A DNA stretch of 64,000 bases from Syntrophomonadaceae bacterium (GTDB taxonomy: Bacteria > Bacillota > Syntrophomonadia > Syntrophomonadales > Syntrophomonadaceae): assembly GCA_012522955.1 (NCBI GenBank), contig JAAYJK010000052.1, positions 1-64,000 of the forward strand, given 5' to 3'. The stretch's first letter is position 1. Each line of letters starts with the position of its first letter. A program made the position numbers and the translations under genes. Under the pieces are notes generated by a model that saw only the letters and a program-made list of their open reading frames with translations, ran no database searches and was not told the origin of the DNA. Below are positions 9,794-26,135 of the stretch, piece after piece.

Positions 9794-9809
9794 TGCAAAA
9801 AGCATGCCA
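9794..9809 (-). promoter_or_regulatory. Sigma-54 (-24/-12) promoter
   Basis: The minus strand reads TGGCATGCTTTTTGCA, matching the RpoN consensus TGGCAC-N5-TTGCW with GG and GC exactly 10 nt apart. Transcription would start near 9783, ahead of the acyl-CoA dehydrogenase remnant and the CoA-transferase genes. A nearly identical element precedes the thiolase operon at 26120-26135. Confidence 0.75.
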
Positions 9810-10115
9810 TTTTCTTCTTTGCTAAAACCCCTAAATTATTGGGCTTTTATCATAAGAAAAATTTATTATTTTGGGTCTTTGGTGTTATTGCCACATAAGA
9901 GCCAAAAAGTGCATTAAAACAAGTCATAATCAGTGGCAAAATTAAAAGACATTTTAGCAATAATGCCAAAATGTCTTTGGTCTTCAGTATTTACCATACA
10001 TCTATTTAATAATTTTATGCTTTCTCATTTTCTTAGTGTTTGCCCGATCCGGCAGCCGAAGTCCCAGACTGGTTCTATCCCTAATCTCGGGTGGGAATCT
10101 GTAGAGCATTTCTGT
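9810..10115. other. Intergenic regulatory region
   Basis: About 300 bp without a supported gene. It contains the inverted repeat and the GTCTTTGGT direct repeats noted for the sigma-54 operon. The remaining sequence to 10164 holds only the hairpin behind the SLH gene. Confidence 0.5.
9945..9978. promoter_or_regulatory. Inverted repeat, candidate enhancer site
   Basis: Arms 9945-9955 and 9968-9978 (AAAGACATTTT / AAAATGTCTTT) are perfectly complementary. The site lies about 160-195 bp upstream of the predicted sigma-54 start. The word GTCTTTGGT recurs at 9875 and 9973. The position fits an upstream activator site, but no experiment or second copy confirms it. Confidence 0.35.
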
Positions 10116-10152
10116 ACCTGGGGAAATCAGCCTTGAATATGATCCCCCAGGT
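10116..10152 (-). terminator. Hairpin after SLH gene
   Basis: Arms ACCTGGGG (10116-10123) and CCCCAGGT (10145-10152) lie 13 nt beyond the SLH stop codon; the loop is 21 nt. No T tract follows, so termination is only likely. Confidence 0.4.
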
Positions 10153-10164
10153 GCTGTCTAGTTG

Positions 10165-11664
10165 TTACCGTACCGCTTCGTAGGTCCTTACCGCCATCAA
10201 AACCGCGGCTTCCCGAGACGCCATACCATATCCCACCGCTTCTTGAGATGTGGTTATGGCCTTGGGCATAAAGTTACCTTTAGTATCTCCTTTGATGATT
10301 CCAATTTTGGACATATATTTGGTGGCTTCCACGGCCCAATCAGAAATATACTTCTGGTCAGGGAAATCGGCTACTCCGATAATGCTGTAATCAGCCTCTG
10401 GCGCAATAGCTTTTATAGTACGGAAAAGCATGGTCGCACACTGTTCCCGGTTAATTAAAACCCGGGGGGAGAAACTAGTATCGGAAGTGCCCAGGGTTAT
10501 TCCTACGGCATAAGCCTTTAAAACTTGGGGATTGTTGGTATCAATAAAAGGATTGGGTGAAACCGGGGCTGCGGCTTGGCCGCTGGTTTTTTCATAAAGC
10601 CGAATGGCCAATTCAGCAAACTCTTCCCGGCTGATGGCTTGGGTCATATCCGCACCTTTCAATATATCAGGTATGAGCTCGTAATCGGCTGCTTTATCAA
10701 GCTCTGCTACTGCCCAGCTGTTGGCATTGCTATAAAAGGCCGGCGTGCCAATCTCCAGCACATTGGAGAAGGGAGAACGTAGGAAGGAACCATCAGGCTT
10801 CTGCATCTCAAAATACATACGGAAATAATAGGTATTCTGCTCGATGTTTACTTCAGCCCATCCGCCTTGATCGATGGGATCCACATCTAAATCGTCGGAC
10901 AGCATGTTACCTGCTTTTTCAAAGGGCATGTCGCCGCTTTCGGTAGCCCACTGACCACCGCCGATTTTCCAGTCCAGTTTAGTCCAGACACTGGTCTGTT
11001 GATTAGCCTGTTCCACACTATCAGGTATGGTACAGGTGAAATGGAAATAGGGCTGACCATTTTCATATGCCTTTAATTCACCGGCTAAGTTCTTGGGAGC
11101 CTCCAGACTATTGGGAATTTGAGCAGCTGAATTCTTGCCTATGGAAGCTATTTCCGAATAGGGCGATACTACACATCTGAAACTTGCCCCATCTTCATAC
11201 TCGTATACATAGCGGTAACGAAAAGAATAGGTGTTATTTTGCAGGTCAAAACTATCTAGATTTAAAGAAAATTCGAAAACAGGTATATCGAAAGCGTTTC
11301 TTTCATCATGTCCGATATTATTTAGATAACCGCAGACATTAAACAGCTCATAAGTGCTTTCATAATATTCCATTACGCCTACGTTACTGGTACCACTCCA
11401 TGTCTTGTTAAATTGCCAGGGGCCGTCATTGATTTTCCAATCCAATTCATATAATAGCCATAACTCATCTTCACTGTCGTTCATTAAATCCATTATACTA
11501 TCCGGCTGAGTCAAACGAAGGAATAATTCTCCGCTATCACCTGGGCGAACAGACAGACTTACCGGTTTATCCAAGGTAACAGAAGAAAATTCATCATTGG
11601 CATAGGCCATTCCTGGCATAAGCAGCATTAGGCCAATTATCAGCGCAATAACTCTCTTTAGCAT
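10165..11664 (-). CDS. Secreted protein with C-terminal SLH domains
   Basis: A 499-residue protein. It starts at ATG 11664 after GGAGGG; the earlier in-frame ATG at 11721 lacks a site and would spoil the signal peptide. A signal peptide ends near GMAYA. Residues about 25-310 form a beta-rich domain with two related halves (each with a Y-E-L/K-L-DWKI motif: LLYELDWKINDGPW and VWTKLDWKIGGGQW). This suggests an internal duplication of an uncharacterised surface domain. The last 190 residues carry three SLH-like modules (ISREEFAELAIRLYE; LINREQCATMLFRTI; ITTSQEAVGYG), with the third the weakest. Likely bound to cell-wall polymer; ligand unknown. Confidence 0.85.
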   Translation of the reverse strand: MLKRVIALIIGLMLLMPGMAYANDEFSSVTLDKPVSLSVRPGDSGELFLRLTQPDSIMDLMNDSEDELWLLYELDWKINDGPWQFNKTWSGTSNVGVMEYYESTYELFNVCGYLNNIGHDERNAFDIPVFEFSLNLDSFDLQNNTYSFRYRYVYEYEDGASFRCVVSPYSEIASIGKNSAAQIPNSLEAPKNLAGELKAYENGQPYFHFTCTIPDSVEQANQQTSVWTKLDWKIGGGQWATESGDMPFEKAGNMLSDDLDVDPIDQGGWAEVNIEQNTYYFRMYFEMQKPDGSFLRSPFSNVLEIGTPAFYSNANSWAVAELDKAADYELIPDILKGADMTQAISREEFAELAIRLYEKTSGQAAAPVSPNPFIDTNNPQVLKAYAVGITLGTSDTSFSPRVLINREQCATMLFRTIKAIAPEADYSIIGVADFPDQKYISDWAVEATKYMSKIGIIKGDTKGNFMPKAITTSQEAVGYGMASREAAVLMAVRTYEAVR

Positions 11665-11775
11665 GTTAAACCCTCCAATTCCATAAATATTAACGGACCA
11701 CAGGCCTGAATTATGCCTCAAGACCTGCTGCCCTTGTGTCCTGAATCCCAGTGGCTAATTGTGTTGCATATTTAG

Positions 11776-12285
11776 CTACTGGCTTATCTCATAATTGATG
11801 GTCACTGCCTTGGTCTCTGAATCATACATTAAAGAAATCTTGGTATTCTCGTCTTTACTGGCACTGTAGTTGTAAGCTGTGTCACTGGTAAACTCATAGG
11901 AATCATTAGTAAAACCCTGATCTTTTATCTCTTCCAAATAGCCACCAAAATCCTCTTGACTAACTTCTTCCAACATGATCATACAGTATTGCTCTGAATT
12001 CATGGCTGAAACCACAGTACCTTTGCTTAAATGTGGAATCTGCTTGGCGGCACCGCTATCAGGCCATTTGGCTTCTCCAAAACTAAATTCTTCCCCATCT
12101 GTTCCTTTGATGCTAACTTTGTCACCGTCTAAATCTACCTTGCTATCTCCATCAACAGCTTTGTTGATTATTCCTTCAACAACTGACTCGGCTACTTTTT
12201 CCTCCATCTTTTCCTTAGCTCCGCAACCGCTTACCGCCACTGCCATGAAAACCACCAGTAAAATGATTACTACCTTTTTGAACAT
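11776..12285 (-). CDS. Lipoprotein of unknown function
   Basis: A 169-residue lipoprotein. The N-terminal hydrophobic segment ends in the lipobox AVSGC with Cys21, followed by a charged helix (KEKMEEKVAESVVEG). The rest is a small alpha/beta domain with no family that I recognise. It starts at ATG 12285 after GAGGG. It lies between two other envelope genes on the same strand (DUF4870-like upstream, SLH protein downstream) but with spacings of 53 and 111 nt, so shared transcription is uncertain. Confidence 0.75.
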   Translation of the reverse strand: MFKKVVIILLVVFMAVAVSGCGAKEKMEEKVAESVVEGIINKAVDGDSKVDLDGDKVSIKGTDGEEFSFGEAKWPDSGAAKQIPHLSKGTVVSAMNSEQYCMIMLEEVSQEDFGGYLEEIKDQGFTNDSYEFTSDTAYNYSASKDENTKISLMYDSETKAVTINYEISQ

Positions 12286-12338
12286 TTATAATCCCTCTTT
12301 TCTTATGATGTGATGCTCCCATCTGATAACCGTAAGGG

Positions 12339-12686
12339 CTACTTTATCAACTGGTACTTGCCAATAATTGGTAGGGGCTTGCCCTTCCCATTAAGCCCAT
12401 TTATTAATCCTATAACAGCTAGAATGAAAACTCCCAGAGCGAAAAAGGGCAGCAGCATCCAGCCAATTATCGGAATAATGCTCAAAACAATGCTTCCTCC
12501 CAGTCCCAGTAAAAGCAGCAGCAATCCCTGGTTGGCATGGTACCTGCCAAAGGGTGAGTTGGGGCAAGCCACCAAAGGCAGGAAAAAAATAATATAGGCA
12601 AGTCCTGCCATAACCTTATTACCTTCAATATCTTCTGAGCTGAATGTAGTAGTTTGATTAGTCTCCTCATGGAAATCTGTCATCAT
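12339..12686 (-). CDS. DUF4870-like small membrane protein
   Basis: A 115-residue protein with a polar N terminus and three hydrophobic helices. The pattern GLAYIIFFLPLVAC, then FGRYHANQGLLLLLLG, then a helix pair, then GKGKPLPIIGKY matches the DUF4870/TIC20-like fold common in Firmicutes (a conserved H-N-Q-G after the first helix). Start ATG 12686 or 12683 after AGGAGG. Function unknown. Followed by the lipoprotein gene. Confidence 0.75.
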   Translation of the reverse strand: MMTDFHEETNQTTTFSSEDIEGNKVMAGLAYIIFFLPLVACPNSPFGRYHANQGLLLLLLGLGGSIVLSIIPIIGWMLLPFFALGVFILAVIGLINGLNGKGKPLPIIGKYQLIK

Positions 12687-12902
12687 TAGAACCTCCTTAT
12701 TAGTTATATGTTGACATTTTTCAATATACCAGTGCTTAAAGCATAAGTAATCACCCCCAGGGTGACTGATGAAAAATCACCTTACGAGTGATCTGGTGAG
12801 TTTGTATGGTTTCGGATGTCAAAAAAGGGTTTTGTACAGATATGGCAAACTATTATATTAGAATGTTTTGCCAAATAATTTAAACTAAAAGAGGCATGAA
12901 AT

Positions 12903-14297
12903 ATGAAAAATAATTTCTTAGCTTCCATATTGTTAATTTTAATAATGATCTCCACATTAGCTGGATGCGGTGAAGGTGCAAAGATCGATCCTTCCGATCC
13001 TGTTACCCTTAATTTGTGGCATAATTACGGTGGTCAGCTTAAAGAGACTATGGACAATATGGTAGATGAATTTAATGAAAGCATTGGTACTGAAAAAGGT
13101 ATTATAATTAATGTTACTTCTATTTCTGGTAGCGCTACTCTCCATGAAAAACTTACTATGGCAGCTCATAAAGACCCAGGCGCCCCTAACCTGCCCGATA
13201 TCACCACTGCCTATCCTAAAACTGCTCTTATTCTGGCTGACAAAGGCTTGTTAACTGACCTGAATAGTCAGTTTTCAGACCAGGAATTATCGGCCTATAT
13301 TCCGGACTTTTTAGAAGAAGGGCGGATAAACGGAGACAGTCTTTATGTCTTCCCTACTGCTAAGTCAACCGAAGTATTGTTTGTTAATACTACATTATTC
13401 AATAGATTTGCCCGGGACACGGGAGCTAAAATGGAGGATCTACAATCCTTTGAAGGAATTGTCAGGACTGCATCTCTTTATTATGAATGGACTGACCAAC
13501 AAACACCTGATGTAGCAAATGACGGTAAAATGTTCTATATGCCTGATTCACTATTTAATTTTTCACTGATAGCTTGTAAACAGCTGGGGGTAAAATTCAT
13601 CAATGACGGTAATTTCTGCTTTTCCTCACCACAGTATAAAAGGATATGGGAATGTTATTATCAATCTGCCGTTTTAGGACGATTCGCGGTTTTTGACGGT
13701 TATGCTACCGACCTGGCAAAAACTGGTGATATAGTATGTTCGACCGGATCAACGGCAGGAGTATCATTTTTCTCTCCCACAGTGACCTATGCAGATAATA
13801 CCTCTGAACCAGCTGAACTGGCTATCCTTCCCTACCCGGTTTTTGAAGGCAGTAAAAAGACCGCTATTCAAAGAGGTGCCGGTATGTGTGTGATCAAATC
13901 CACCCCAGAAAAAGAATACGCTGCCGCAGTTTTCTTAAAATGGTTTACCAACCCGGAAAACAACTTGCGCTTCGTTTCATCTACCGGCTATCTTCCGGTA
14001 ACTGAAGAGGCCTTCGGGGACATTATGTCCCAGGAAATAGATAAGGTGTCTGATGACAGTATTAAGAAACTACTGCAAACAGCCAGGATAATGCAACAAG
14101 AATATGAGTTCTGCATTCCTCCACTGTTCGATGGGATCGATGAAATGCAGAAGGAATATGAAAGCCAGCTTAGGGAAGTAACAGCAGCTTCACGGGCATC
14201 TCTAAACCATATCTCCGAAAGTGATAAAAATACCGCATACAAAACAATGGCTCCTGCTGCCTTTGATGATTTTATAAACCAGCTTTCGAAAATCTAA
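12903..14297 (+). CDS. Extracellular solute-binding lipoprotein, family 1
   Basis: Sugar-type ABC substrate-binding protein of 464 residues, exported and lipid-anchored at Cys22 (STLAGC). The family shows in LNLWHNYGG near the mature start, the DITTAYPKTA hinge region, the LAILPYPVFEG strand and the C-terminal FLKWFTNPENNLRFVSSTGY block. No ABC permease or ATPase gene lies nearby. Instead it is followed, 21 nt later, by a membrane-bound LuxR regulator, so it probably acts as a ligand receptor for that regulator rather than for uptake (inference). The start at ATG 12903 has only a weak ribosome site (AGAGG). Confidence 0.85.
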   Translation: MKNNFLASILLILIMISTLAGCGEGAKIDPSDPVTLNLWHNYGGQLKETMDNMVDEFNESIGTEKGIIINVTSISGSATLHEKLTMAAHKDPGAPNLPDITTAYPKTALILADKGLLTDLNSQFSDQELSAYIPDFLEEGRINGDSLYVFPTAKSTEVLFVNTTLFNRFARDTGAKMEDLQSFEGIVRTASLYYEWTDQQTPDVANDGKMFYMPDSLFNFSLIACKQLGVKFINDGNFCFSSPQYKRIWECYYQSAVLGRFAVFDGYATDLAKTGDIVCSTGSTAGVSFFSPTVTYADNTSEPAELAILPYPVFEGSKKTAIQRGAGMCVIKSTPEKEYAAAVFLKWFTNPENNLRFVSSTGYLPVTEEAFGDIMSQEIDKVSDDSIKKLLQTARIMQQEYEFCIPPLFDGIDEMQKEYESQLREVTAASRASLNHISESDKNTAYKTMAPAAFDDFINQLSKI

Positions 14298-14318
14298 TTT
14301 GTAATGGAGCTATGACCA

Positions 14319-15938
14319 TTGAAAAACATATTCAACAAGCAGGGTCAAAATTTGATAAAGCAGTTGAACGCTTCAGCCACGTGTGGTATTTCCATGAACA
14401 CCAGACTTTTTCTGCTATTGATTGTACTGGTTGTTACTATAATTTTGGGAGTAATAGCTATACTGTTGATTACCGGCACTTTTACCGCCGGTCTGGATGA
14501 GAGAGAGACATTGTTCCAAAATGAACTCCTTCATACTTCGGACCAGATCTCCGGGCAATATGGTGAGCTTTCCGTACAAGTCATCAAGTTTTCCGAAGAA
14601 TTATCAGGTAATATTGAACAAAAAGCGCAAGACTTAGGTATATCAGTGTCAGAATTAGCCAAACACCCGGATAAATTGGAAAAAATTATATCAGATCAAT
14701 TTGATGTTACTTACTTATCTCTGGAGAGGTTCAAATGCAGCGGCATTTTCTTTATTTTGGACGCCACCGTCAATCCCACTCTTTACAATTCGCAAAACTC
14801 CAAAGCAGGTTTGTATTTGAAGAACATGGAGCCTAATATAATCAATTCATCTCATCCTAACATTATTGTACTGCGAGGTTTTCCCAGCCTGGGACGCAAC
14901 AACTCACTATCCCTGCATACCCAGTGGAAAATGGAATTTGATGTTAGCAACGCTTCCTATTATCATCTTCCCATTCAAGCAGCCCGTTCTAACCGGGAAC
15001 TTCCTTTATCCCGGCTCTATCATTGGACTCCGGCTCTAAGTTTGCCAGGAACCAGTGAAGAAACCATGATTTGCTCAGTGCCTCTAATTGATTCCCAGGG
15101 TAATGTTTTTGGTGTATGTGGATTAGACATAAGCAGTATGCTATTTAAGCTGTCATATAAGCCCCAAACCGGCGATTATAGTCGCTTGTTCTATATCCTC
15201 GCTCCCCATAGCGGCTCAGCCATCAACCTTCGGGAGGCCATGGTAGCTGGAGGTTATTCATCCAGAATAATGTCCAAAAGCGAATCGCCCCTTACCATTT
15301 CCCAAACCAAGGGGGCTTTTTACTCCTACCACCAGGGCGAGAACATCTCCTTCTGGGGACTCCACACTCCGATACACTTATATCCCGAAGGATCTGCTTT
15401 TGCTGACAAACAATGGATAGCAGCGATACTGATTCCGGAAGAGGATATTGTACTATCTATAACCCGCCTAAATGTGCTGTTAATATCTTTGCTGTTGCTC
15501 TTGGTTGTAGTAGGAATAATAGCTTCACTATTAATAAGCAAAAGATTCTTAAAGCCCATCTCAAAAGGGTTAGAGCTTATCAAATCAGAGGACTTGAGGG
15601 AAGCTCCCCGAACCAGAATACCTGAAATAGACAATCTAATAGAATTCCTGGCTAACCGCAATGAAGCTCTTTATGAAGGAGCCAAACAAAAAAACTTATC
15701 CTTTACGCTTCTGGATGAGTTTGCCCGGAATACAGAAACACTATCACCTTCGGAGCTCTCAGTATATGACCTCTATGCCCAGGGATATACTGCCAAAGAA
15801 ATTGCAGAAACATTATGTCTAAGTATAAACACCATCAAAACCCACAGCAAACACATTTATGCCAAACTTAATATTACTTCTCGCGCTGAGCTCCTTTTAT
15901 ATGTAAACTTGCTGGAAGAAATAGATAAGGAAGTATAA
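14319..15938 (+). CDS. Membrane Cache-type sensor with LuxR DNA-binding domain
   Basis: A 539-residue one-component regulator. A transmembrane helix (about residues 29-52) is followed by a 300-residue extracytoplasmic Cache-like domain, including a strand VFGVCGLDIS typical of double-Cache folds. A second transmembrane helix (about 382-405) and a short linker lead to a C-terminal LuxR HTH (about 475-535: LSPSELSVYDLYAQGYTAKE, then LCLSINTIKTHSKHIYAKL). It starts at TTG 14319 after GGAG; the only ATG downstream (14394) lacks a site. There is no kinase or receiver domain, so signal passes directly from outside to DNA binding, perhaps needing proteolysis or binding at the membrane. Operon with the solute-binding lipoprotein. 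Confidence 0.85.
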   Translation: MKNIFNKQGQNLIKQLNASATCGISMNTRLFLLLIVLVVTIILGVIAILLITGTFTAGLDERETLFQNELLHTSDQISGQYGELSVQVIKFSEELSGNIEQKAQDLGISVSELAKHPDKLEKIISDQFDVTYLSLERFKCSGIFFILDATVNPTLYNSQNSKAGLYLKNMEPNIINSSHPNIIVLRGFPSLGRNNSLSLHTQWKMEFDVSNASYYHLPIQAARSNRELPLSRLYHWTPALSLPGTSEETMICSVPLIDSQGNVFGVCGLDISSMLFKLSYKPQTGDYSRLFYILAPHSGSAINLREAMVAGGYSSRIMSKSESPLTISQTKGAFYSYHQGENISFWGLHTPIHLYPEGSAFADKQWIAAILIPEEDIVLSITRLNVLLISLLLLLVVVGIIASLLISKRFLKPISKGLELIKSEDLREAPRTRIPEIDNLIEFLANRNEALYEGAKQKNLSFTLLDEFARNTETLSPSELSVYDLYAQGYTAKEIAETLCLSINTIKTHSKHIYAKLNITSRAELLLYVNLLEEIDKEV

Positions 15939-15984
15939 TCCTTTTACGCGGATAGCCTTGGCTATCCGCGTAAAAGGATTATAC
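15933..15984. terminator. 25-bp perfect palindrome at convergent gene ends
   Basis: Arms 15933-15957 and 15960-15984 are perfectly complementary, with a 2-nt TT spacer. The left arm includes the TAA stop (15936-15938) of the LuxR gene. It sits between convergent genes and could stop transcripts from both sides, although neither side has a strong T run. Confidence 0.6.
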
Positions 15985-16031
15985 AACTTATGCTTGACTT
16001 TGATTAACTCGTCTTTTGTTCCTCCCTGTCC

Positions 16032-16730
16032 TTATTCTGGTATATTAGGCAATTGAGACATATCCATTACCTGGGCATCAGCAGGAAGCTGGAATAGATC
16101 CTCAGGTTGTTTTCCAAGATTGTAGTTTTTATACTCAACTACAATCTTGCCTTCAGCTGATTCTGTTTCCATTCTGATGGGCATTCCTTGGTCTTTCGTT
16201 AACCACATTTTACTGAGGGTACCTTCATCTCCGCTTATGCTTACTACCACACAATCATATCCATTCATTTTTTCATGACCAATAATTTTATAGTTATCCA
16301 GATCCTCTTCTTCGCTCCACTCATTGGGCAAATCGTTGGGCACTTCAATATCCGGTATTTTCATTGCCATTTTCTCTGTCGGACTATAAACCCAGGCTTC
16401 ACCATTCCCATTGGCAATCATAATTGACGTAATCCCAACTGTTTCTGTTTCCACCCTCATTTTCTTGCCGCTTATCCAATACTTACTGTGCGTGGTCATG
16501 GTTTGATCACTTCCAGTGACAGTGCTTTCAACTTCAAAAGACAGGTCGGTAACTTCCTTGGCAGAGTTCATGATTTTTTCCAATTCATTTTCGTTAGAAC
16601 TGCCCTTTTCTTCTTCTGCTACTGGCGGTGATGAAGCCTCTGGGACCTTTTCGCTGCTGCCACACCCGACCAGGACCATGCAGCAGGTCATCAAGAGAGC
16701 AACCATCAAATAAACAGAACATCTCCTCAT
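16032..16730 (-). CDS. LolA-like / outer-lipoprotein-sorting-type lipoprotein
   Basis: A 232-residue lipoprotein (lipobox LVGC, Cys23) with a Ser/Glu-rich linker. A LolA/LppX-like beta domain follows: VESTVTGSDQTMTTHSKYWI, MRVETE, WVYSPTEKMAMKIP, YDCVVVS, and GMPIRMETESAEGKIVVEY. In Firmicutes, proteins of this kind bind lipids or act in sporulation or envelope stress; the ligand is unknown here. Start ATG 16730 lies 7 nt after AAGGAGG; an earlier TTG (16736) is too close to the site. Monocistronic, divergent from the BlaI-type regulator. Confidence 0.75.
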   Translation of the reverse strand: MRRCSVYLMVALLMTCCMVLVGCGSSEKVPEASSPPVAEEEKGSSNENELEKIMNSAKEVTDLSFEVESTVTGSDQTMTTHSKYWISGKKMRVETETVGITSIMIANGNGEAWVYSPTEKMAMKIPDIEVPNDLPNEWSEEEDLDNYKIIGHEKMNGYDCVVVSISGDEGTLSKMWLTKDQGMPIRMETESAEGKIVVEYKNYNLGKQPEDLFQLPADAQVMDMSQLPNIPE

Positions 16731-17377: not shown

Positions 17378-19572
17378 GCATCTTACCTGAACTGTTTTCC
17401 ACCATACTGGGTATAAGTATCACCGCGTCCTTGGTTATTATGGGAGTGGTTTTGGTGCGCATGTTCTTAAGAAAAGCGCCCAAGGTCTTCTCTTATGCCT
17501 TATGGGCGGTGGTTCTGTTTAGGCTCCTATGTCCCTTATCCTTCACTTCTGCTCTTAGTTTTCTAGGTCTTCTTAATATTAACCCTTTGAATAATGCCGG
17601 TGCATTGTCGTATGTGCCCAATATATTCAATCCTGCTCCAGCATCCTCCTTCCCAGTGGGTATGGACAACTCGGAGCAAACCATAAATTCTTTTTCACAG
17701 TCGACTGCAAGTATAGCCAACCTCAGCCCTATGCCTACAGCAATGGAGGTCTTAAGTATTATCTGGCTACTGGGAATTGTGATACTACTCACTTACAGTA
17801 TAGTCTCATATATAAAAGTAAGACAAAAACTATTACCCGCCACCCTGCTGATGGGCAATATTTATGAATCAGATCAGATCGACACCGCTTTTGTCTGTGG
17901 TTTTATCAAGCCCAGAATCTATGTTCCGGTAGGGGTTGAGGAGGCCGATTTACCTTACATTTTGGAACATGAGGAAACCCATATCCGCCGTAAGGATTAT
18001 CTCATCAAACCCTTGGCGTTTTTGGTACTCATCTTGCATTGGTTTAATCCTCTGGTTTGGTGGTCTTTTTCCCTTATGAGCCGGGATATGGAAATGTCCT
18101 GTGACGAGTGTGTGTTGAACCGGTTGGGTAAAGGGGTAAAAGCTGCTTACTCAGGTTCACTGCTATCACTATCAGTTAGTAGGTCTGCTCCTTTGCTGGC
18201 CCATCCATTGGCTTTTGGGGAAAGCAACGTTAAGGCCCGGATTAAGAATGTCATCAATTACCAGCAACCCAGGTTTTGGGTCATAATAGTGGCTATCCTG
18301 GCAGTTGGCCTATCAGTACTGGTTTTCACCACGAATCCTGAAAAGGATGAATTAGATCCCATTCGCAGTTTAGCCTGGAAAGTAATGGAACGGGATATTG
18401 CCAATTATGAATTAAACCCGGAGGTTAATATCATTGACCATAAAATAACCCGCCTGGAATTGATAAAGAGTTTTGATGATCTGACAGATACCCCCATACA
18501 TGTTTATGCCCTGGAATACCGGTTGCTTCCTGATGATTTGAGCAAAGTAGTTCTGGCCGGTGGTATGCAGATAGATGAAGATGGTTGGCTGAAAGAAACC
18601 TGCAGCATGGGCAGTCCATTATTGCTGGTATCTGAAAATAAAGAGTTAAGGGAACTGGCAGGGATAGTCTGGACGGGAGAAGCTCAAGAACTGGAGTCAG
18701 CGGTTAAGGATTTCTTGGCCCAAAAAGCCTCCCAAGAAGCTAAGATAGAAAAGCTGGTGGAAGAAAATCTATCCATAATAATGTCTTCACCTAAAGAAGC
18801 TTCCAGCCCCTATGCTTATATTCAGGCCCATGAGCAGGAATATGAAAATATAAAGAAATTTGGGGGAGACGAAGCTCTGCAATATATGCTGGCCCAGTTC
18901 GAAAAGGGCAATGCCGAGGGTCTGCGCGGGTTTATCATGATGCAGTTGTGTAAGGATTTTCTTGGCATTCGCAACAACGTAACAAATAATTCTCTATCTC
19001 CCATGGAGTGGTACCGTGCCCTGGATATCAGAGAAGAGACCAGCCTGTCGGATTTTCAGTATGACGGACAGGATCCCATCAAAAAACTGGTTTATGCTAC
19101 CGAAGTAGTACAGAACTCCATTCCTCACCTAGGATTCACTATAGTTGCCCCCAAAATATTTGGCAGCTATGAAGAGGGCCAGTTGCTGAGAGTCTTTGTC
19201 ACCACCTATAGCGCCAGATACAAGCTTTACGATAAGGTGCTGGATCAGGTGGGGGGCGGAGTTATCCCCGCAGCTATCACCTATAAAAAGGATATAAACG
19301 GCAATTATATGCTGCTCGACTATGAACAGTCCCAGGATGGCGCTCATTGGGCTCCTTCCGTGCGGGAATATTGCCGGATGCCGGTATCCGGCCAGGAGAT
19401 TCCAGGGCTAGCCGATGCCATAATCAATCATTACTCTAATTACAATGACCTGCGTCAACTTCATTTTGACAATCTGTATAAGCATTTATCTGCCCATGGC
19501 ATAAAGGAGGCCACCCTCACTAACCCTCAGGGCGAGATCCTGTTTTCCATGAGCTGGCCGAATAGGCAATAG
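17374..19572 (+). CDS. M56-family membrane metalloprotease (BlaR1-like antirepressor)
   Basis: A 732-residue protein. The N-terminal 315 residues form the M56 protease: helices near 10-30, 37-56, 120-147 and 297-317, and a zinc motif HEETH at residues 199-203 (ILEHEETHIRRKDYL), followed by SRDMEMSCDECVL. It should cleave the cognate BlaI-type repressor after a signal. The remaining 415 extracytoplasmic residues lack the penicillin-binding STxK sensor of BlaR1 and resemble nothing I can name. They end in a possible DUF4829/DUF5301-like small domain (FVTTYSARYKLYDK). The signal is therefore probably not a beta-lactam. Coupled to the repressor by overlapping stop and start. Confidence 0.88.
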   Translation: MSILPELFSTILGISITASLVIMGVVLVRMFLRKAPKVFSYALWAVVLFRLLCPLSFTSALSFLGLLNINPLNNAGALSYVPNIFNPAPASSFPVGMDNSEQTINSFSQSTASIANLSPMPTAMEVLSIIWLLGIVILLTYSIVSYIKVRQKLLPATLLMGNIYESDQIDTAFVCGFIKPRIYVPVGVEEADLPYILEHEETHIRRKDYLIKPLAFLVLILHWFNPLVWWSFSLMSRDMEMSCDECVLNRLGKGVKAAYSGSLLSLSVSRSAPLLAHPLAFGESNVKARIKNVINYQQPRFWVIIVAILAVGLSVLVFTTNPEKDELDPIRSLAWKVMERDIANYELNPEVNIIDHKITRLELIKSFDDLTDTPIHVYALEYRLLPDDLSKVVLAGGMQIDEDGWLKETCSMGSPLLLVSENKELRELAGIVWTGEAQELESAVKDFLAQKASQEAKIEKLVEENLSIIMSSPKEASSPYAYIQAHEQEYENIKKFGGDEALQYMLAQFEKGNAEGLRGFIMMQLCKDFLGIRNNVTNNSLSPMEWYRALDIREETSLSDFQYDGQDPIKKLVYATEVVQNSIPHLGFTIVAPKIFGSYEEGQLLRVFVTTYSARYKLYDKVLDQVGGGVIPAAITYKKDINGNYMLLDYEQSQDGAHWAPSVREYCRMPVSGQEIPGLADAIINHYSNYNDLRQLHFDNLYKHLSAHGIKEATLTNPQGEILFSMSWPNRQ

Positions 19573-19623
19573 GAAAACTGGGCCAGGTTTCCCCTTCCAC
19601 AGAGTTAACCCCGCCATAAACAA

Positions 19624-19647
19624 GCTTCATCATGCAAATGATGAAGC
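19624..19647 (+). terminator. Hairpin after M56 gene
   Basis: Perfect 10-bp arms GCTTCATCAT / ATGATGAAGC with loop gcaa, 52 nt after the stop codon. No T tract follows, so it may be an RNA-end stabiliser or a weak terminator. Confidence 0.45.
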
Positions 19648-19759
19648 GAATAAAGTGGAAGCCAAAATATTTCAGTAAATCTTGGGAACTGCTTATTTCT
19701 GAGCGGGCACCTGAGCTTGTCTGAGCTAAACTGTGCCTCCATATTGATACTTTGGAAAG

Positions 19760-20131
19760 CTAATTATCACTGATTATTCTGGCTCCAAAAGGTATAAGGC
19801 CCAGCATAGCAAATTTAAAATGCTGGAGTCCGAAGGGTATCCCAATGATGGTTACACAGAAAATCAAACCTATGATAACATGAGTAATGGCAAACTCCCA
19901 GCCAAAAACGATAAGCCAGATGATATTGAAGATCAATCCGCCCGCCCCAAAATGACCCAGTTCTATCTCTCTTCCAAAAGGCCACAAAACAAAACCGGCG
20001 ATCTTGAAACACTGCAGCCCAAAGGGTATCCCTATGATGGTTATACACAAAACCACACCGGATAAAGCCCATAAAACAGCGGCAATAATTCCACCGATCA
20101 GCAGCCAGATAAGATTACCTATAAAATTCAT
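19760..20131 (-). CDS. YccF (DUF307) family membrane protein
   Basis: A 123-residue protein made of two repeats of the YccF module. Each has a hydrophobic helix followed by ITIIGIPFGLQ (residues about 31-41 and 93-103) and a short F-x-x-A/G-x-W/L-P-F-G segment. It starts at ATG 20131 after GGGGTGAG. A small integral membrane protein of unknown function, found across bacteria. Alone on this strand. Confidence 0.9.
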   Translation of the reverse strand: MNFIGNLIWLLIGGIIAAVLWALSGVVLCITIIGIPFGLQCFKIAGFVLWPFGREIELGHFGAGGLIFNIIWLIVFGWEFAITHVIIGLIFCVTIIGIPFGLQHFKFAMLGLIPFGARIISDN

Positions 20132-20498
20132 TTTCTCACCCCATTTCTTAACTTCTGCCTCAAAAACATCAATAGCTTGCCTCTGTCCCTGGTTCTCATG
20201 ATACTACACTTATATATTATATTTATATCCTTTCGTAAAAGCCTATAACCCACCATACACCATACATCTGCATCGAAGCACTAAGGGCAGATTCTTACAA
20301 ATTGTTGTTCTTTCTCGAATAATGGCATAATTATATTGCTGGCAAAGCATAAGTTGGATATACTATTCGTATTCAGGTCCAAGACTTTCGTTGGCAACCA
20401 TATTAAATAAAATCTTATTCTAATATGGCTGAAATTTCGCAAGAAAGCTTGGTCTGGCAGCTTGGCCCATATTATTTTACCCAAGGGAGGATATTGAA
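20132..20498. other. Intergenic region
   Basis: About 370 bp without a convincing gene. It would hold the yccF promoter (minus strand) on its left and the promoter of the small plus-strand ORF on its right. No repeat or strong hairpin was recognised. Confidence 0.4.
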
Positions 20499-20609
20499 AT
20501 GAATCAGCCAAAAAGACCTTGGTACAACCGGGTTTCACCCTGAATCCTAATGTATAGCCTGCTGGGTGCAGGATTAATAATATACGCTTTGATTAAATAT
20601 TTTATCTAA
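20499..20609 (+). CDS. 36-codon membrane micro-ORF with in-frame TGA
   Basis: AAGGGAGGA followed 8 nt later by ATG opens a frame: MNQPKRPWYNRVSP, then TGA (20541-20543), then ILMYSLLGAGLIIYALIKYF, a further I, and TAA at 20607. The two halves read as one small single-pass membrane protein with a basic N terminus, interrupted at codon 15. A short hairpin (CCTGC, loop TGGGT, GCAGG; 20558-20572) follows the TGA, with its loop 19 nt downstream and a G in loop position two. That agrees with loose rules for bacterial SECIS elements. A TGG-to-TGA nonsense mutation is the simpler alternative. I do not recognise the family. Confidence 0.4.
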
Positions 20610-20701
20610 ATCTTTAGGGGATTATGTGGCGCCTAGCTAGAGATCAATGTTGAGCTTCTTTATCCGTTTCCAGGGGCAGGATGCATGATGGCAATAATTT
20701 T

Positions 20702-22669
20702 TTAATCCGCTTCAGTCAACAAAGGTAAAATCCCGGTAAAATAATCAAGTGCTTCTGGATTACCCAAGGCGTCTCTATTAGTGACCTTGCGCCCGTTTAT
20801 AATATTGCTGACTGCACTTTCCACCTTTTTACCATTCAGGGTGGTGGGGATATCAGGCACTTGCATAATAATGGCCGGAACATGACGGGGAGAAGCATTT
20901 ACTCGCAAAACCTTTGCTATTTCTTCTTTAAGTTCGTCATCCAGTTCAATCCCCTCTTGGGTTTGAACAAAAAGGATAATCCTCTGGTCACCCCTATAAT
21001 TTTGTCCAATGGCCAAGCTATCAGCAATTTGGGGTATTTTTTCCACCTGATTATAGATTTCTGCAGTACCGATTCTAACCCCGGATGGTTTTAAGATGGA
21101 ATCAGAGCGACCAAAATACGTTATTCCCCCGGTATCGGAATGTATCATTACGTAATCTCCATGATGCCAAATGCCAGGATAAACTCTAAAATAAGCATCC
21201 AAATAGCGGCTGCCATCCGGATCATCCCAAAATTTTATCGGCATTGAGGGGGCAGGCAGTTCACAAACCAATTCCCCCTGTTCATCTCTTACTTGCTCTC
21301 CCTTTTCATTATACGCATTTATCTTCATGCCCAGCCCGGGGCCTTGAAGCTCCCCGGAATAAACGGGACTAATAGGATTGCCCGATGACAAACAGCCGTT
21401 AATTTCAGTTCCCCCAGCAATAGAATTAAAATGCAAGTCTTCTTTAATCTCTTTATAAATGTATTCAAATCCCTCGTTGGTGAGCACCGAACCAGTCTGG
21501 GATATGGCTCTTAGATACGGGAGTGAAACAGCTTCTTTAGGTGAAAATTGTTCTTTCATAATAGTATGCACATAGCTGGCGCTGAGCCCGAATATAGTAA
21601 CCCGCTCTTCCTCCAGTATCTTCCATATAGCGCTGGTGTCGGGATAGGATGGATTACCGTCATAGAGCACTATTGAAGCACCAGTTCCTATAGCTGCAGC
21701 CTGCCAGTTCCACATCATCCAACTGCAGCTGGTGATATAAAGCATACGGTCAGAAGGCTTCATGTCATTATGCAAAACCAGTTCTTTTAGTTGATTAATT
21801 AAAACACCTGCTGCCGATTGTACCATGCATTTGGGTTTGCCGGTGGTTCCTGATGAAAACATTATAAAAAGAGGGTGTTGGGAAGGAAGTTGCTCGAACT
21901 CAAAACCCTCCGCCGCATTCCTGACCAGAAAGTCTGCATAGGAAACACTACCTGGAATTTCATTTATTATAGAACTATCACCCCTATAAGGAGAGATAAC
22001 CACCCTTCTAATAGAAGGAATTCCTTCTAGAATTGCTTTTACATTTTCTATAACGTCGAATGGCTTTCCTTTATAGAGATATCCATCACTTGTAAACAAA
22101 ACCACAGGTTTCACCTGGCCCAACCGGTCAATGGCTGCCTGGGGTCCAATATCAGTAGCGCAGGAACACCATACCGCACCTACAGCTGAACAAGCTAGCA
22201 TGGCGATAACTGTTTGAGGCATATTGGGCATATAGGCCGCGATTATGTCCCCTGCTTTTATTCCCTCTTGCCTCAGGGCTTCAGCAAGGCCTACCACCTG
22301 TTTATATAAGTCCTTATGGCTAATCTCTGATCGGACTTGATTTTCACCCCGAAAGATAATAGCCGGATCCAGGCTGGAAGAAAAGCGCAGCATATTCTCG
22401 GCATAGTTTAATTTTGCGTCTATGAACCAGCCAGCTCCGGGAAATTCTGATAAATCATGGACTAGATTTGAATAAGGCCGAGAACTTTTTATATCCAGAT
22501 AGTGCCATAGTGTGTCCCAAAATTCGATAGGGTAATCAACCGACCACTTATAAAGAGACTGGTAATCATCGATGGCCAGTCCCAATTTGGCATTTACGTA
22601 CTCCATAAAAGCATACATATTAGTATTTTTTACATATTCATCAGAGGGCTTCCATAATAGCTTTCTCAT
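20702..22669 (-). CDS. Acetoacetyl-CoA synthetase
   Basis: Acetoacetate + ATP + CoA to acetoacetyl-CoA + AMP + PPi (EC 6.2.1.16); 655 residues, cytosolic. ANL superfamily with an N-terminal extension typical of acetoacetate-CoA ligase (LWKPSDEYVKNTNMYAFMEY). The ATP loop MFSSGTTGKPKCM lies near residue 270, with GGTEINGC, the hinge YFGRSDSILKPSGVRIGTAE, and the catalytic lysine in TTLNGKKVESAV near the C terminus. The start at ATG 22669 lies 8 nt after GGGAG; the GTG at 22678 overlaps that site. It lies downstream of the thiolase / CoA-transferase operon, 302 nt away, so it could recycle free acetoacetate into the same pathway. Other 3-oxoacids may also be accepted. Confidence 0.9.
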   Translation of the reverse strand: MRKLLWKPSDEYVKNTNMYAFMEYVNAKLGLAIDDYQSLYKWSVDYPIEFWDTLWHYLDIKSSRPYSNLVHDLSEFPGAGWFIDAKLNYAENMLRFSSSLDPAIIFRGENQVRSEISHKDLYKQVVGLAEALRQEGIKAGDIIAAYMPNMPQTVIAMLACSAVGAVWCSCATDIGPQAAIDRLGQVKPVVLFTSDGYLYKGKPFDVIENVKAILEGIPSIRRVVISPYRGDSSIINEIPGSVSYADFLVRNAAEGFEFEQLPSQHPLFIMFSSGTTGKPKCMVQSAAGVLINQLKELVLHNDMKPSDRMLYITSCSWMMWNWQAAAIGTGASIVLYDGNPSYPDTSAIWKILEEERVTIFGLSASYVHTIMKEQFSPKEAVSLPYLRAISQTGSVLTNEGFEYIYKEIKEDLHFNSIAGGTEINGCLSSGNPISPVYSGELQGPGLGMKINAYNEKGEQVRDEQGELVCELPAPSMPIKFWDDPDGSRYLDAYFRVYPGIWHHGDYVMIHSDTGGITYFGRSDSILKPSGVRIGTAEIYNQVEKIPQIADSLAIGQNYRGDQRIILFVQTQEGIELDDELKEEIAKVLRVNASPRHVPAIIMQVPDIPTTLNGKKVESAVSNIINGRKVTNRDALGNPEALDYFTGILPLLTEAD

Positions 22670-22851
22670 TTGATTCACTCCCAGATTAGTTTTACACCAA
22701 AGGGACTATTTAACCTTTCTACATCCTTTGATAAATTTCCTATCTAATCATCAGAAATTTGCATAATTCGACATATATCTGGTCAAGGCTAATCATTGAC
22801 CATAGTGATTGAATTCCCGCAATGACACCAAGAACTAAGAACATATGGTAG

Positions 22852-22894
22852 CATTTACCACGACCGCCTTATGGGAAGGCGGTCGTGGTAAATG
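22852..22894 (-). terminator. 19-bp perfect hairpin
   Basis: Arms 22852-22870 and 22876-22894 pair perfectly around a 5-nt loop. The hairpin lies 78 nt beyond the CoA-transferase stop and about 180 nt before the acetoacetyl-CoA synthetase start. It probably ends or attenuates the thiolase operon transcript. There is no T run. Confidence 0.6.
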
Positions 22895-22971
22895 TTGGAA
22901 TCAGTAATGTGATTTACTTTATTAAAAACCAATCACTCTAGGATAAATCAAGATACCCTCCTCCATGATAT

Positions 22972-24315
22972 CTATTTAATACTGGCAAAGGGGTAGAAAT
23001 TCTTTTTCATACTGGCCCGCAATTCTCCTCGCAGTTGGGGATGGGCTATGGAAATCAGTTCTTTGGCTCGTTCAGTGCGGGATTTATACCTGAGATTGGC
23101 TATGCCATATTCGCTAACTACATACTGAGCATAAGTGCGGGGTACAGTAACCGGGGACCCTAAAGGCAGCTCGGGAACTATAGAAGAACGCAGTGAGCCG
23201 TCTGGCATTACTCGGGAGGAACTGAGCAAGGTGATGCCCTTGCCTCCTTCTGACCAGTAGGATCCAATCATGAAATCCAACTGCCCCCCGGATCCGCTAA
23301 TTTGAGTATGACCCACTCCCTCGGAATTGATTTGGCCACTCAAATCTATCATCAAGGCCATATTCATAGCTATCATGTTGGGATGCCGAGCAATAAAACC
23401 CGGGTTATTGGTATATGAAGATGGATAAAACTCACAGGCCGGATTTTCTCTGACATAGTCATACATTTCTTGGTCTCCCATACAAAAGGTAGCTACCGTA
23501 ACCCCTTTATGAAATGGCTTGCGTTTATTGGTAACTATACCTTTAGATATCAGTTGCGGCAAACCGATGGGAAACATTTCGGTTAGTACTCCCAGGTCCT
23601 GTTTGCCCTCTAAACCGCATACAACGGCCTCAGGTATGCCACCTATTCCCATCTGAATGGTATCCCCATCATTTATCAACTCCAGTACATACTCAGCTAT
23701 GCTCTTATCAATTTCACCGGGGGTACCCCGGCTAAAAACAGGTATGGCGGTTGAGTTTGTTACAAAATAATCGAATTCGGAGATATGCATCCAGTTATCC
23801 CCGTATATTACTGGCATTTGATCATTGACTTCTCCTATGGTTATTCGTTGTTTTCCCGCTGCTCTTCCATTTCTAATGGTTTCCATGGTATAGAAATTGG
23901 TCAGGCCTAAATTCACATAGCCTTGGTCATTAGGTCGAGTGACCATGGCAATAAATACATCTGATTTATGCCAGGTTTTCTGAGCCAGGTCTGAACTCAT
24001 AACCGGATAAAAATCAGCCTGCTTGGTATTATTCATTTTCCGGCCAGTGGCAATACTGAAACCTGGTATATAATTAATATGACCGTCTAATTGCATCATA
24101 TATTCAGGATCCAAGAATTTATAAGGGTACAAGGCAATAGTATCCAATATTCTTACCCCCTGCAATTCCTGGTAGCGATGTAATATGGCGTTGAATAGAT
24201 CAGCTGAGCCGGCTCCAATAGCCAAACCCGTACCAATTACATCCCCGGATTGAACCAATTGTGCCGCTTGCTCTAAAGTTATTAACTTTTTTTCATATTC
24301 CTTTTTCCATGCCAT
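22972..24315 (-). CDS. Acyl-CoA:acetate/4-hydroxybutyrate-type CoA-transferase
   Basis: A 447-residue single-chain CoA-transferase of the acetyl-CoA hydrolase/transferase family (group with 4-hydroxybutyrate and butyryl-CoA:acetate CoA-transferases). Key features: IQMGIGGIPEAVV, then GVLTEMFPIG with the catalytic Glu246, VEGVGHTQ-like GVGHTQISGSGGQLDF, and the C-terminal VVSEYGIANLRYKSRTERAK and FYPFASIK-type end. The start at ATG 24315 follows GGGGGAG. It is the third gene of the thiolase-DUF35-transferase operon (33 nt after DUF35). It likely activates a short-chain acid with acetyl- or acetoacetyl-CoA; the exact acid cannot be told. Confidence 0.85.
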   Translation of the reverse strand: MAWKKEYEKKLITLEQAAQLVQSGDVIGTGLAIGAGSADLFNAILHRYQELQGVRILDTIALYPYKFLDPEYMMQLDGHINYIPGFSIATGRKMNNTKQADFYPVMSSDLAQKTWHKSDVFIAMVTRPNDQGYVNLGLTNFYTMETIRNGRAAGKQRITIGEVNDQMPVIYGDNWMHISEFDYFVTNSTAIPVFSRGTPGEIDKSIAEYVLELINDGDTIQMGIGGIPEAVVCGLEGKQDLGVLTEMFPIGLPQLISKGIVTNKRKPFHKGVTVATFCMGDQEMYDYVRENPACEFYPSSYTNNPGFIARHPNMIAMNMALMIDLSGQINSEGVGHTQISGSGGQLDFMIGSYWSEGGKGITLLSSSRVMPDGSLRSSIVPELPLGSPVTVPRTYAQYVVSEYGIANLRYKSRTERAKELISIAHPQLRGELRASMKKNFYPFASIK

Positions 24316-24348
24316 AAATATCTCCCCCTTTATGAATTGCACCATTCA

Positions 24349-24774
24349 TCAAACGTTTTCTATCTGTTCTATATAACTGAATACCGGCCGGGCAGCTTCA
24401 CCGGCGGAATACCTATCGCCCGGGAATACTCTATGTCCTAAGCCGACTCTTTTGCCAATCAGCTTCATATTTACCCGCTTAGGATCAACATCATCCAAAT
24501 TGCCCATGATCCAAGGCCCCTCATCCAGTTGGACCATTACTATGGTAATAGGCAATTCGTTTTCCCGACCCTCGGAATTCAGATAGGAAGTAGTAAAGGT
24601 AAGCACTTGGCCTTTCCCACTTAATTCCACCACCTCTTGATTGGTTCCGGCACATTCCTGGCAAACCATCATGGGAGGACAGGTTACTGTCCCACAATCA
24701 TTGCACTTCAAGCCTAATAGCTTATTGCGCTTTAGTGCTTTATTATAATCTTTGAAAATCACTTTGTATTCCAT
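24349..24774 (-). CDS. DUF35 Zn-ribbon/OB-fold acyl-CoA-associated protein
   Basis: A 141-residue protein with a rubredoxin-like zinc ribbon (CNDCGTVTCPPMMVCQEC, residues about 23-40) and an OB fold (GKGQVLTFTTSYLN, then GPWIMGNLDDVDPKRVNMKL). In archaea and some bacteria, proteins of this family bind thiolases and channel CoA intermediates. It lies 16 nt behind the thiolase gene, so it is most likely that enzyme's partner. The start at ATG 24774 follows GAGGGGGG. The reading frame open to 24870 overlaps the thiolase gene and is not the real start. Confidence 0.9.
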   Translation of the reverse strand: MEYKVIFKDYNKALKRNKLLGLKCNDCGTVTCPPMMVCQECAGTNQEVVELSGKGQVLTFTTSYLNSEGRENELPITIVMVQLDEGPWIMGNLDDVDPKRVNMKLIGKRVGLGHRVFPGDRYSAGEAARPVFSYIEQIENV

Positions 24775-24790
24775 ATTAAACCCCCCTCTT

Positions 24791-25966
24791 TTATGCGGCT
24801 GAAAAGATAATGCTGACCAGTACTCCATCGCCACCCAAAGTATCCATAAGTGCATGTTTGGCTTCATCAACCTGTCTTCCTTGCTCGACCAGCTGTCCTC
24901 GTAACTGACGGGTCAATTCATAGGCCTGGGATACTCCGGTAGCCCCAATGGGATGTCCTTTGGCCTTTAAGCCTCCCGACATATTAATGGGTATCTTGCC
25001 TCCCAGCCTGGTTTCTCCTCTTTCCCAAGCTTCCCCGGCGGTGCCGAATTCAAATAGACCCAGTCCCTCGGCGGCAATGATAGCGGCAATACTGAAACAG
25101 TCATGTAGTTCACAAACATCAATGTCCTGAGGAGTAAGGCCAGCCATTCGGTAAGCCTGCTCTGCAGCCAATTCTCTGGCTCTAAGCCGGGGTAAATACT
25201 GGTATTGGGAACTTAGCTTACCGGAGGAAGTCTGCCCAATTCCGCTAATATAAACCGGTTGGTTGGTGAGTTTTTTAGCTACCTCTTCTGAAGCCAGGAC
25301 AACTGCAGCTGCTCCATCCGAGAAGGGGCAAGCATCATGCAGTTGTATAGGAGTGGTAACCATGAAACTCTTAAGAACCTCCTCTTTGCTCAATTGCTTA
25401 TGAATCTGGGCATGGGGGTTTTTCATAGCATATTCATGAGATTGAACAGAGACCGCTGCCATCTGTTCCTTCAGCCGCTCCAGCGGTATTCTGTAACGGT
25501 GGGCGTAGAGGTGGGCCAACAGACCAAAAGCAGCGGGAAAGGTGAATCCGGTTGGAAACTCGTAACGACTGTCCCCAAACATGGCAAAGGTTCTGGTAGC
25601 CAAGGCAGTTCCCATGGCCGTTGCCCTTTCCACCCCACCCACCAAGACAATATCATAATATCCGGAAGCTACCCATATAAAGGCATCTCGCAAAGCTATG
25701 CTGCCTGAAGCACAAGCCCCTTCAAACCTGGTAGCCGGCACATTAAAACAACCAATATCGTTAGCAAAAAATGACTGTACCATTCCCTGCCCCTCAGCAA
25801 AGTCTCCCAACACATTGCCCACATTTATCGCCTGAATGTCTCTGGCTTCTAAACTTGATTCCCTAATGGCATCCATAGCTACTTCTGATAACATTTCTAC
25901 CGATGTTTTGGGCGAGTTAAAACAAAATTTACTATGTCCCCCACCCAGCACCACAACTCTTCTCAT
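24791..25966 (-). CDS. SCP2/DitF-type thiolase
   Basis: A 391-residue thiolase-fold enzyme forming or cleaving a 3-oxoacyl-CoA. The acyl-accepting cysteine is Cys85 (FEGACASGS). Further motifs are the CELHDCFSIA segment and GGLKAKGHPIGATG with the catalytic histidine. The second cysteine loop found in degradative thiolases is replaced by TLGGDG, as in the SCP2-type branch. First gene of the operon with DUF35 and a CoA-transferase; the sigma-54 promoter at 26120-26135 lies about 155 nt upstream. Chemistry could be acetoacetyl-CoA formation or cleavage, or action on a branched substrate. The start at ATG 25966 follows GGAGGA. Confidence 0.88.
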   Translation of the reverse strand: MRRVVVLGGGHSKFCFNSPKTSVEMLSEVAMDAIRESSLEARDIQAINVGNVLGDFAEGQGMVQSFFANDIGCFNVPATRFEGACASGSIALRDAFIWVASGYYDIVLVGGVERATAMGTALATRTFAMFGDSRYEFPTGFTFPAAFGLLAHLYAHRYRIPLERLKEQMAAVSVQSHEYAMKNPHAQIHKQLSKEEVLKSFMVTTPIQLHDACPFSDGAAAVVLASEEVAKKLTNQPVYISGIGQTSSGKLSSQYQYLPRLRARELAAEQAYRMAGLTPQDIDVCELHDCFSIAAIIAAEGLGLFEFGTAGEAWERGETRLGGKIPINMSGGLKAKGHPIGATGVSQAYELTRQLRGQLVEQGRQVDEAKHALMDTLGGDGVLVSIIFSAA

Positions 25967-26119
25967 ACTAAATCCTCCTCTCCAAAATAGCCCTAGGCTC
26001 TAATTTGAGTCTGACCTTAATTCAAAAAAGCATTAGCCCGCTTACAACTACCTCGCTGCCATCCCCTGAATAGATATTGCTGTTTGCTGCTTAACTTAAT
26101 GGTGTTCACTAAACATAAG

Positions 26120-26135
26120 CGCAAAAACCATGCCA
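26120..26135 (-). promoter_or_regulatory. Sigma-54 (-24/-12) promoter of thiolase operon
   Basis: The minus strand reads TGGCATGGTTTTTGCG; the invariant GG (26134-26133) and GC (26122-26121) are 10 nt apart. It shares 14 of 16 bases with the element at 9794-9809. Predicted start about 26109, leaving a 143-nt leader to the thiolase ATG. A sigma-54 activator gene lies directly upstream. Confidence 0.8.

Follow-up and report, generated by a model that had tools for sequence, protein, structure and literature searches.

Do two almost identical sigma-54 promoters lying on one contig answer to one activator? The question is raised by a 64,000-nucleotide stretch of a Syntrophomonadaceae bacterium (GenBank assembly GCA_012522955.1, contig JAAYJK010000052.1, positions 1 to 64,000; the window, below), in which TGGCATGCTTTTTGCA (9794-9809) heads the operon gctA-gctA-gctB (gct) and TGGCATGGTTTTTGCG (26120-26135) heads a thiolase-DUF35-CoA-transferase operon next to a gene for a CBS-PAS-PAS activator. 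The first-pass annotation of this DNA had placed both sites on the minus strand, with exact GG-N10-GC spacing and 14 of 16 bases in common, and had suggested RpoN control of acid-CoA metabolism with one or related activators. Coordinates, strand, spacing and identity were all borne out on the sequence, as were the operons downstream (three PF01144 subunits for one; a thiolase, a DUF35/ChsH2-like protein and an AcetylCoA_hydro-type CoA-transferase for the other). As for the activator, our answer is that both sites are likely to be working −24/−12 promoters, each within an activator module of its own, gct probably being served in trans by L037, an enhancer-binding protein (EBP) of the same genome. 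The two promoter cores are as follows.

9795..9809, minus strand: sigma-54 promoter core TGGCATGCTTTTTGC of the gct operon; strict pattern, equivalent sites in relatives
26121..26135, minus strand: sigma-54 promoter core TGGCATGGTTTTTGC of the thiolase operon; strict pattern, equivalent sites in relatives

Both sites carry GG at −24 and GC at −12 with 10 bp between them, at 189 bp from the gctA1 ATG and 169 bp from the thiolase ATG. They are the only strict matches (TGGCAY-N5-TTGC) in the window, where 100 shuffled versions averaged 0.30 matches and reached two in 4 cases; with one mismatch allowed, 11 matches were found against 9.75 expected, which is chance level. Matches to sigma-70-type promoters, sought as an alternative, occurred only at shuffle level, and a Rfam scan of the window matched no known RNA element. 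Taken alone, the window is suggestive of a promoter pair and not conclusive. The resemblance of the two 16-mers is a mere fit to the consensus and brings no extra information: when the 45 strict sites of the genome are compared pairwise, 12.4% of the pairs have 14 or more of the 16 bases in common. Since some 12% of pairs are equally alike, we rejected near-identity as a sign of a common activator.

The genome context is what makes the sites credible. Pattern searches over the assembly (G000, 2.53 Mb) showed a single rpoN gene (465 bits), so that the sigma factor on which the suggested control depends is present, as well as strong sigma-54 activation domains in 19 proteins (five weak AAA+ matches were left out of this EBP count). 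The strict pattern matched 45 times and its reverse never; when the spacer was changed to N4 or N6, 8 and 10 matches were obtained, and 36 of the 45 N5 sites were intergenic as compared with 5 of the 18 controls (Fisher p = 2e-4). First genes were named for 32 intergenic sites, those that had an assignable frame behind them; at least 19 of these genes encode acyl-CoA or CoA-transfer enzymes, namely five CoA-transferases, five thiolases, four enoyl-CoA hydratases, two acyl-CoA dehydrogenases, and one each of a 3-hydroxyacyl-CoA dehydrogenase, an Etf and an acyl-CoA ligase. The remainder include an aldehyde:ferredoxin oxidoreductase, a Zn-dehydrogenase, an Fe-S protein, regulators and unknowns. 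Relatives have a similar excess; three other genomes of the genus, for example, carry 69-93 sites each. Altogether, the rpoN gene, the EBPs, the spacer-specific excess, the intergenic positions and the CoA genes make RpoN control of acid-CoA metabolism well supported, and the acyl-CoA genes of this Syntrophomonas-like fatty-acid oxidiser appear to be largely under RpoN.

One 56-kb contig of the assembly, G000:C92 (L148, L149), carries ten strict sites, among which are three divergent pairs. The genes around them encode thiolase, hydratase, dehydrogenase and CoA-transferase enzymes, and the contig has the look of a dense RpoN-controlled beta-oxidation island.

What sets the two promoters apart lies further upstream. 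Both are preceded, 70-250 bp away, by conserved inverted repeats present more than once, those of gct being of the form TTTGGCNNNNTTGCYAAA (class A) and those of the thiolase operon of the form GCAANNTTGC (class B).

9953..9970, minus strand: putative activator site A1, TTTGGCATTATTGCTAAA, centred at −152 inside the palindrome 9945-9978, which is possibly also a terminator
9878..9895, plus strand: putative activator site A2, TTTGGTGTTATTGCCACA, weaker, centred at −77
26223..26253, minus strand: two putative class-B activator sites, GCAAGCTTGC (26244-26253) and GCAAACTTGC (26223-26232), centred at −113 and −92
26340..26349, minus strand: third putative class-B activator site, GCAAAATTGC, centred at −209
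26506..28653, minus strand: EBP of 715 aa, CBS-CBS-PAS-PAS-AAA+-HTH (Pfam PF00571 twice, PAS, PF00158, PF18024; synteny in relatives)

The exact class-A sequence occurs at three places in the genome: gct A1 and two sites, at −148 and −72, upstream of the promoter at C26:5860, whose crotonase gene was identified from its sequence. The related genome G022, in which an EBP gene adjoins a gct operon, has class-A copies at −157 (one mismatch) and −81 (two mismatches). The spacing of the pair is 75 bp at gct and 76 bp at both C26 and G022, and with up to two mismatches the background is about 0.005 matches per 300 bp. No class-A site was detected in the thiolase region with up to three mismatches, and no exact GCAANNTTGC in the gct upstream region. 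In the C26 operon crotonase comes first, followed by acyl-CoA dehydrogenase, two CoA-transferases and, last, EBP L037 (G000:C26:11083-12504). When the gct-side EBP of G022 was compared with the EBPs of the present genome, L037 came first at 62%, the next at 53%, and the window EBP reached 43.5%; the recognition helices of L037 and the G022 protein are alike (IDLSTLYRKLKKY and IDLSSLYRKLKKY, with IDLS-S/T-LYRKLKKY in both). It is because of the common site pair, its spacing, the kinship with the G022 EBP, the helix match and the lack of a class-A site at the thiolase promoter that we propose L037 for gct, an assignment to which we give somewhat better than even chances. A single activator for both promoters, one of the two options of the first-pass annotation, is not supported by these data, the upstream sites being different and at different, separately conserved positions, and the gct-side EBP of G022 standing closer to L037 than to the CBS-PAS-PAS protein. 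The other option, related activators, holds insofar as all of them are EBP paralogs. Two candidates were set aside in the course of this search: CATTTT-N8-16-AAAATG as a gct-specific site, which occurs at 12 genome places (the inner core is a better guide), and C20:1512, a one-mismatch class-A match that apparently falls within a coding region and is not followed by a good promoter.

On the thiolase side, class-B sites and EBP keep company across relatives. The closest relatives of the window EBP belong to Syntrophomonas and other Syntrophomonadaceae, and in seven of eight relatives (L056, L057, L059, L060, L061, L064 and L065) the EBP stop codon is followed, at 314-437 bp, by a strict promoter site; none was present in the stretch of L058 that was scanned. 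GCAANNTTGC recurs at −207 and −113 in L064, and at −115 and −94 in L056 and L057, which also have one-mismatch copies at −209/−210. The EBPs of L056, L057 and L064 match the window EBP in their recognition helices (IDPSTVLRKAAKYG / VDPSTVLRKAAKYG; I/V-DPSTVLRKAAKYG). Other helices go with other repeats: the more distant L059, L060 and L065 have VDASTIVRKAAKYG and L061 has VSQPTVIRKAARYG (helices with VDASTIV and VSQPTVI), and the repeats seen by eye in these relatives are GTTGCA..TGCAAC and GATACA..TGTATC. Such a joint change of repeat and helix is expected if the repeats are the EBP binding sites. Downstream of the promoter, L064 has a thiolase as in the window, L056 and L057 an enoyl-CoA hydratase, and L061 a gene that from its sequence is 4-hydroxybutyryl-CoA-dehydratase-like. 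The GCAAGCTTGC/GCAAACTTGC pair is an inverted repeat able to form a hairpin. The genes of the operon in the window are the following.

24791..25966, minus strand: thiolase of the SCP2/DUF35-partner type (PF22691, PF00108)
24349..24870, minus strand: DUF35 / ChsH2-like zinc-ribbon OB-fold partner protein (PF01796, PF12172)
22972..24345, minus strand: acyl-CoA:acetate-type CoA-transferase, AcetylCoA_hydro family (PF13336, PF02550)

Two further structures were noted around these modules. A long, near-perfect hairpin without a T tail (TTTACCACGACCGCCTT..AAGGCGGTCGTGGTAAA, 22850-22893) sits between the CoA-transferase gene of the thiolase operon and an acetoacetate-CoA ligase gene, and could be a terminator, an attenuator or an activator site. 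In three Syntrophomonas (L059:12436-12620 and its equivalents in L060 and L065), the sigma-54 promoter is separated from a thl-hbd-crt-acd-gct operon by a conserved leader (GGCAGGTAGTTTTACGACTCTCAGTTACCCAACTTTCCTCTTATGATTTTT, about 50 nt) and, behind it, a strong stem; with a folding z of −2.95 and no credible Rfam match, the element is a candidate regulatory RNA.

Why would gct have no activator gene beside it? The operon looks truncated, a point that the first-pass annotation had overlooked.

8628..9620, minus strand: gctA1, CoA-transferase subunit A, 330 aa (PF01144; PDB 1poi_A, E = 1e-53)
7636..8601, minus strand: gctA2, second CoA-transferase subunit A, 321 aa (PF01144; tandem order in relatives)
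6828..7634, minus strand: gctB, CoA-transferase subunit B, 268 aa from the ATG (PF01144; 1poi_B, E = 7.5e-49)
9624..9719, minus strand: acyl-CoA dehydrogenase fossil, matching codons 208-239 of the dehydrogenase in G022 (tblastn E = 1e-8, 56% across 32 residues)
9721..9734, minus strand: GGGGAAGGAGGAGG, ribosome-binding-site-like remnant of the lost dehydrogenase, aligned to GGGAGGAGG before the G022 dehydrogenase start

GctA and GctB have glutaconate CoA-transferase 1poi as best match, gctA2 is about 54% identical to gctA1, and the glutamate of the B-subunit VETG, which we take to be the catalytic residue, aligns with VESG. By homology, with A and B subunits and the B glutamate all in place, the products would be a glutaconate-type (class I) CoA-transferase. 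The A-A-B order is kept in G022, G008, G050, G046 and G026. A strict promoter precedes acd-gctA-gctA-gctB in the first four (L186, L187, L216 and L217, respectively) and lies upstream of gctA in G026 (L188). The full order in G022 is EBP, sigma-54 site, acyl-CoA dehydrogenase, gctA, gctA, gctB, hbd, thiolase, crotonase, and in G046 it is crotonase, EBP, sigma-54 site, dehydrogenase, gctA, gctA, gctB, thiolase, hbd; of that operon the window keeps only the promoter, the upstream sites and gctA-gctA-gctB. The dehydrogenase fossil, which has an in-frame stop, lies between the promoter and gctA1 and abuts the latter, at the place where G022, G008, G046 and G050 have the whole gene. From palindrome to promoter the DNA is homologous to that of G022 (score 72, against a best of 30 in 500 shuffles). 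Fossils of hbd, thiolase or crotonase were sought after gctB and none was found, and a supposed fossil of the 3' end of the EBP gene upstream of the palindrome was dropped, 115 of 500 shuffles having aligned as well.

The arrangement of two tandem A subunits and one B is itself retained in at least six genomes (window 6828-9620; L186, L187, L188, L216, L217). In L218 (G048, Syntrophomonas DTU019) a transposase-like gene stands between gctA1 and gctA2 and the dehydrogenase is absent, apparently an independent decay.

We propose the following scheme, in which each promoter would be paired with a separate activator module. The CBS-PAS-PAS EBP would bind GCAANNTTGC at −209, −113 and −92, contact the polymerase by looping and switch on the thiolase-DUF35-CoA-transferase operon. 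The gct operon would descend by truncation from an [EBP]-sigma54-acd-gctA-gctA-gctB-(hbd/thl/crt) operon whose neighbouring EBP and downstream genes were lost along with the greater part of the dehydrogenase gene, while the promoter and the TTTGGCNNNNTTGCYAAA sites at −152 and −77 stayed. L037, the paralogous EBP of the crotonase operon with the same site pair and spacing, would then activate gct in trans. The observations underneath are the sequences with their positions and conservation, the rpoN and EBP genes and the dehydrogenase fossil. That gct is a rewired orphan captured by L037, two substrate-specific fatty-acid modules having merged into one sigma-54 regulon, is to us an evenly balanced proposition.

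Several points weigh against this scheme. Transcription, EBP binding, trans-activation and effector molecules are what we infer; the loss of an adjacent EBP is deduced from synteny in only G022 and G046; and the genome is a draft in 137 contigs. The class-A pattern was drawn after the gct and crotonase palindromes had been viewed, which makes its uniqueness partly circular (the pair spacing and the G022 copies suffer less from this), and A2 carries two mismatches. Chance should account for some 9 of the 45 strict sites, in agreement with the nine intragenic ones, and two strict matches did turn up in a few window shuffles; it is nevertheless barely credible that both 16-mers match a common consensus by accident, for they are intergenic, at a typical start-codon distance and before CoA genes like most other sites, with equivalents in relatives even amid diverged surrounding DNA. 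The stronger form of the first-pass reading, in which the CBS-PAS-PAS EBP beside the thiolase operon activates both promoters, draws on their location 16 kb apart on the same contig and on the inner core of A1, GCATTATTGC, which is one mismatch off GCAANNTTGC and might allow cross-activation by the thiolase EBP; moreover, site A1 of C26 holds an exact GCAATATTGC, and the helices of L037 and the window EBP have D-x-S-T-x-x-RK-x-x-KYG in common. The gct region has no exact GCAANNTTGC, however, nor the thiolase region any class-A site with up to three mismatches, the positions are unlike (−152/−77 versus −209/−113/−92), and the EBP of the G022 acd-gct operon is far nearer L037, so that we regard this reading as improbable.

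The decay of the operon also raises the possibility that the gct promoter is a relic left after EBP loss, gctAAB being silent or read from a sigma-70-type promoter. The fossil just past the promoter, the missing downstream genes, the absence of a nearby EBP and the related G048 operon, likewise broken up by a transposase-like gene, are in line with this; gctA1, too, has had no good, close ribosome-binding site since the deletion, which leaves its expression uncertain and counts against our scheme as well. Yet the promoter and both activator sites are intact, the three gct frames are open, and the sigma-70-like matches are at shuffle level. In comparison with G022, amino-acid changes are far below silent ones (pN 0.12-0.13, about 0.12; pS 0.67-0.70, about 0.69), a ratio that averages a long history with pS near saturation and speaks for past constraint only. 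We consider a relic doubtful. The upstream palindromes, for their part, might be only intrinsic terminators of the preceding genes, with no role in activator binding: both major palindromes resemble such terminators, which counts against our scheme too, the 9945-9978 repeat scores as one (stem and T-rich tail), and in relatives the repeats stand just after the EBP gene. There is no such T-rich tail at A2 or at the second C26 copy, though, the 75-76 bp pair spacing is retained between non-orthologous operons, and the repeat sequence changes together with the EBP recognition helix. A terminator role alone is in our view unlikely; the two functions are compatible and could coexist. Separate activator modules, with L037 acting on gct, remain the reading that we prefer.

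As far as we found, how syntrophic fatty-acid oxidisers choose among paralogous beta-oxidation genes has not been worked out. Judging from this genome, a main layer of that choice may be formed by sigma-54 together with a set of one-component EBPs. Readable activator-site codes would pair each operon with its activator, and the pairings of L037 with crotonase and gct, and of the CBS-PAS-PAS EBP with the thiolase operon, are testable; gct exemplifies an operon whose neighbouring activator went and whose sites remained. In E. coli, the AtoSC system acts on atoDAEB, where a sigma-54 promoter drives a CoA-transferase pair and a thiolase, and AtoC is a phosphorylated response regulator. The window EBP is unlike AtoC in having CBS/PAS input domains and no receiver domain, and its AAA+/HTH part scores 324 bits with the AtoC model (NF008469), below the cut-off of 714. 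An assignment as PrdR (NF041552) was rejected too, at 505.7 bits against a curated cut-off of 795.

The closest parallel is provided by the sigma-54 regulons of Clostridiales (Nie, Dong and Yang 2019, PMC6615313), with which our loci share the promoter consensus (TTGGCATNNNNNTTGCT), one-component PAS-type EBPs beside CoA/butyrate operons and multiple upstream activator sites; CBS-domain EBPs are listed there, and some EBPs lie apart from their targets. The differences are that 15 motifs in that study, including those of PrdR, AhcR and CrbR, are TGT-N10-12-ACA, while the recurrent repeats found here are TTTGGCNNNNTTGCYAAA and GCAANNTTGC, and that its pathway is butyrate/alcohol synthesis, whereas the present family is known for fatty-acid oxidation; Syntrophomonas is absent from its main text. 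According to a cross-phylum survey (PMC12316311, 2025), genes downstream of predicted sigma-54 promoters in Clostridia/Bacilli are enriched in those for acyl-CoA and 3-hydroxyacyl-CoA dehydrogenases, thiolases, enoyl-CoA hydratases, CoA-transferases (COG1788, COG2057), acetyl-CoA hydrolase and Etf. The survey is statistical, by COG, the portions consulted containing no activator-site assignment or operon decay, and its main text does not mention Syntrophomonas. In Syntrophomonas wolfei, Swol_0456 and its paralogs are PAS-sigma54-DNA-binding regulators (PMC4324140), of the same PAS/sigma-54 type and genus; the accessible part of that source states no targets or binding sites for them. Our search of the open-access literature, with subscription journals and supplements outside it, turned up no paper in which sigma-54 promoters or EBP sites are assigned for Syntrophomonas. 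Taken together, these comparisons indicate that our findings extend to this bacterium a control scheme known from other Clostridia, with the correction that probably two activators, and a decayed operon, stand behind the two similar promoters.

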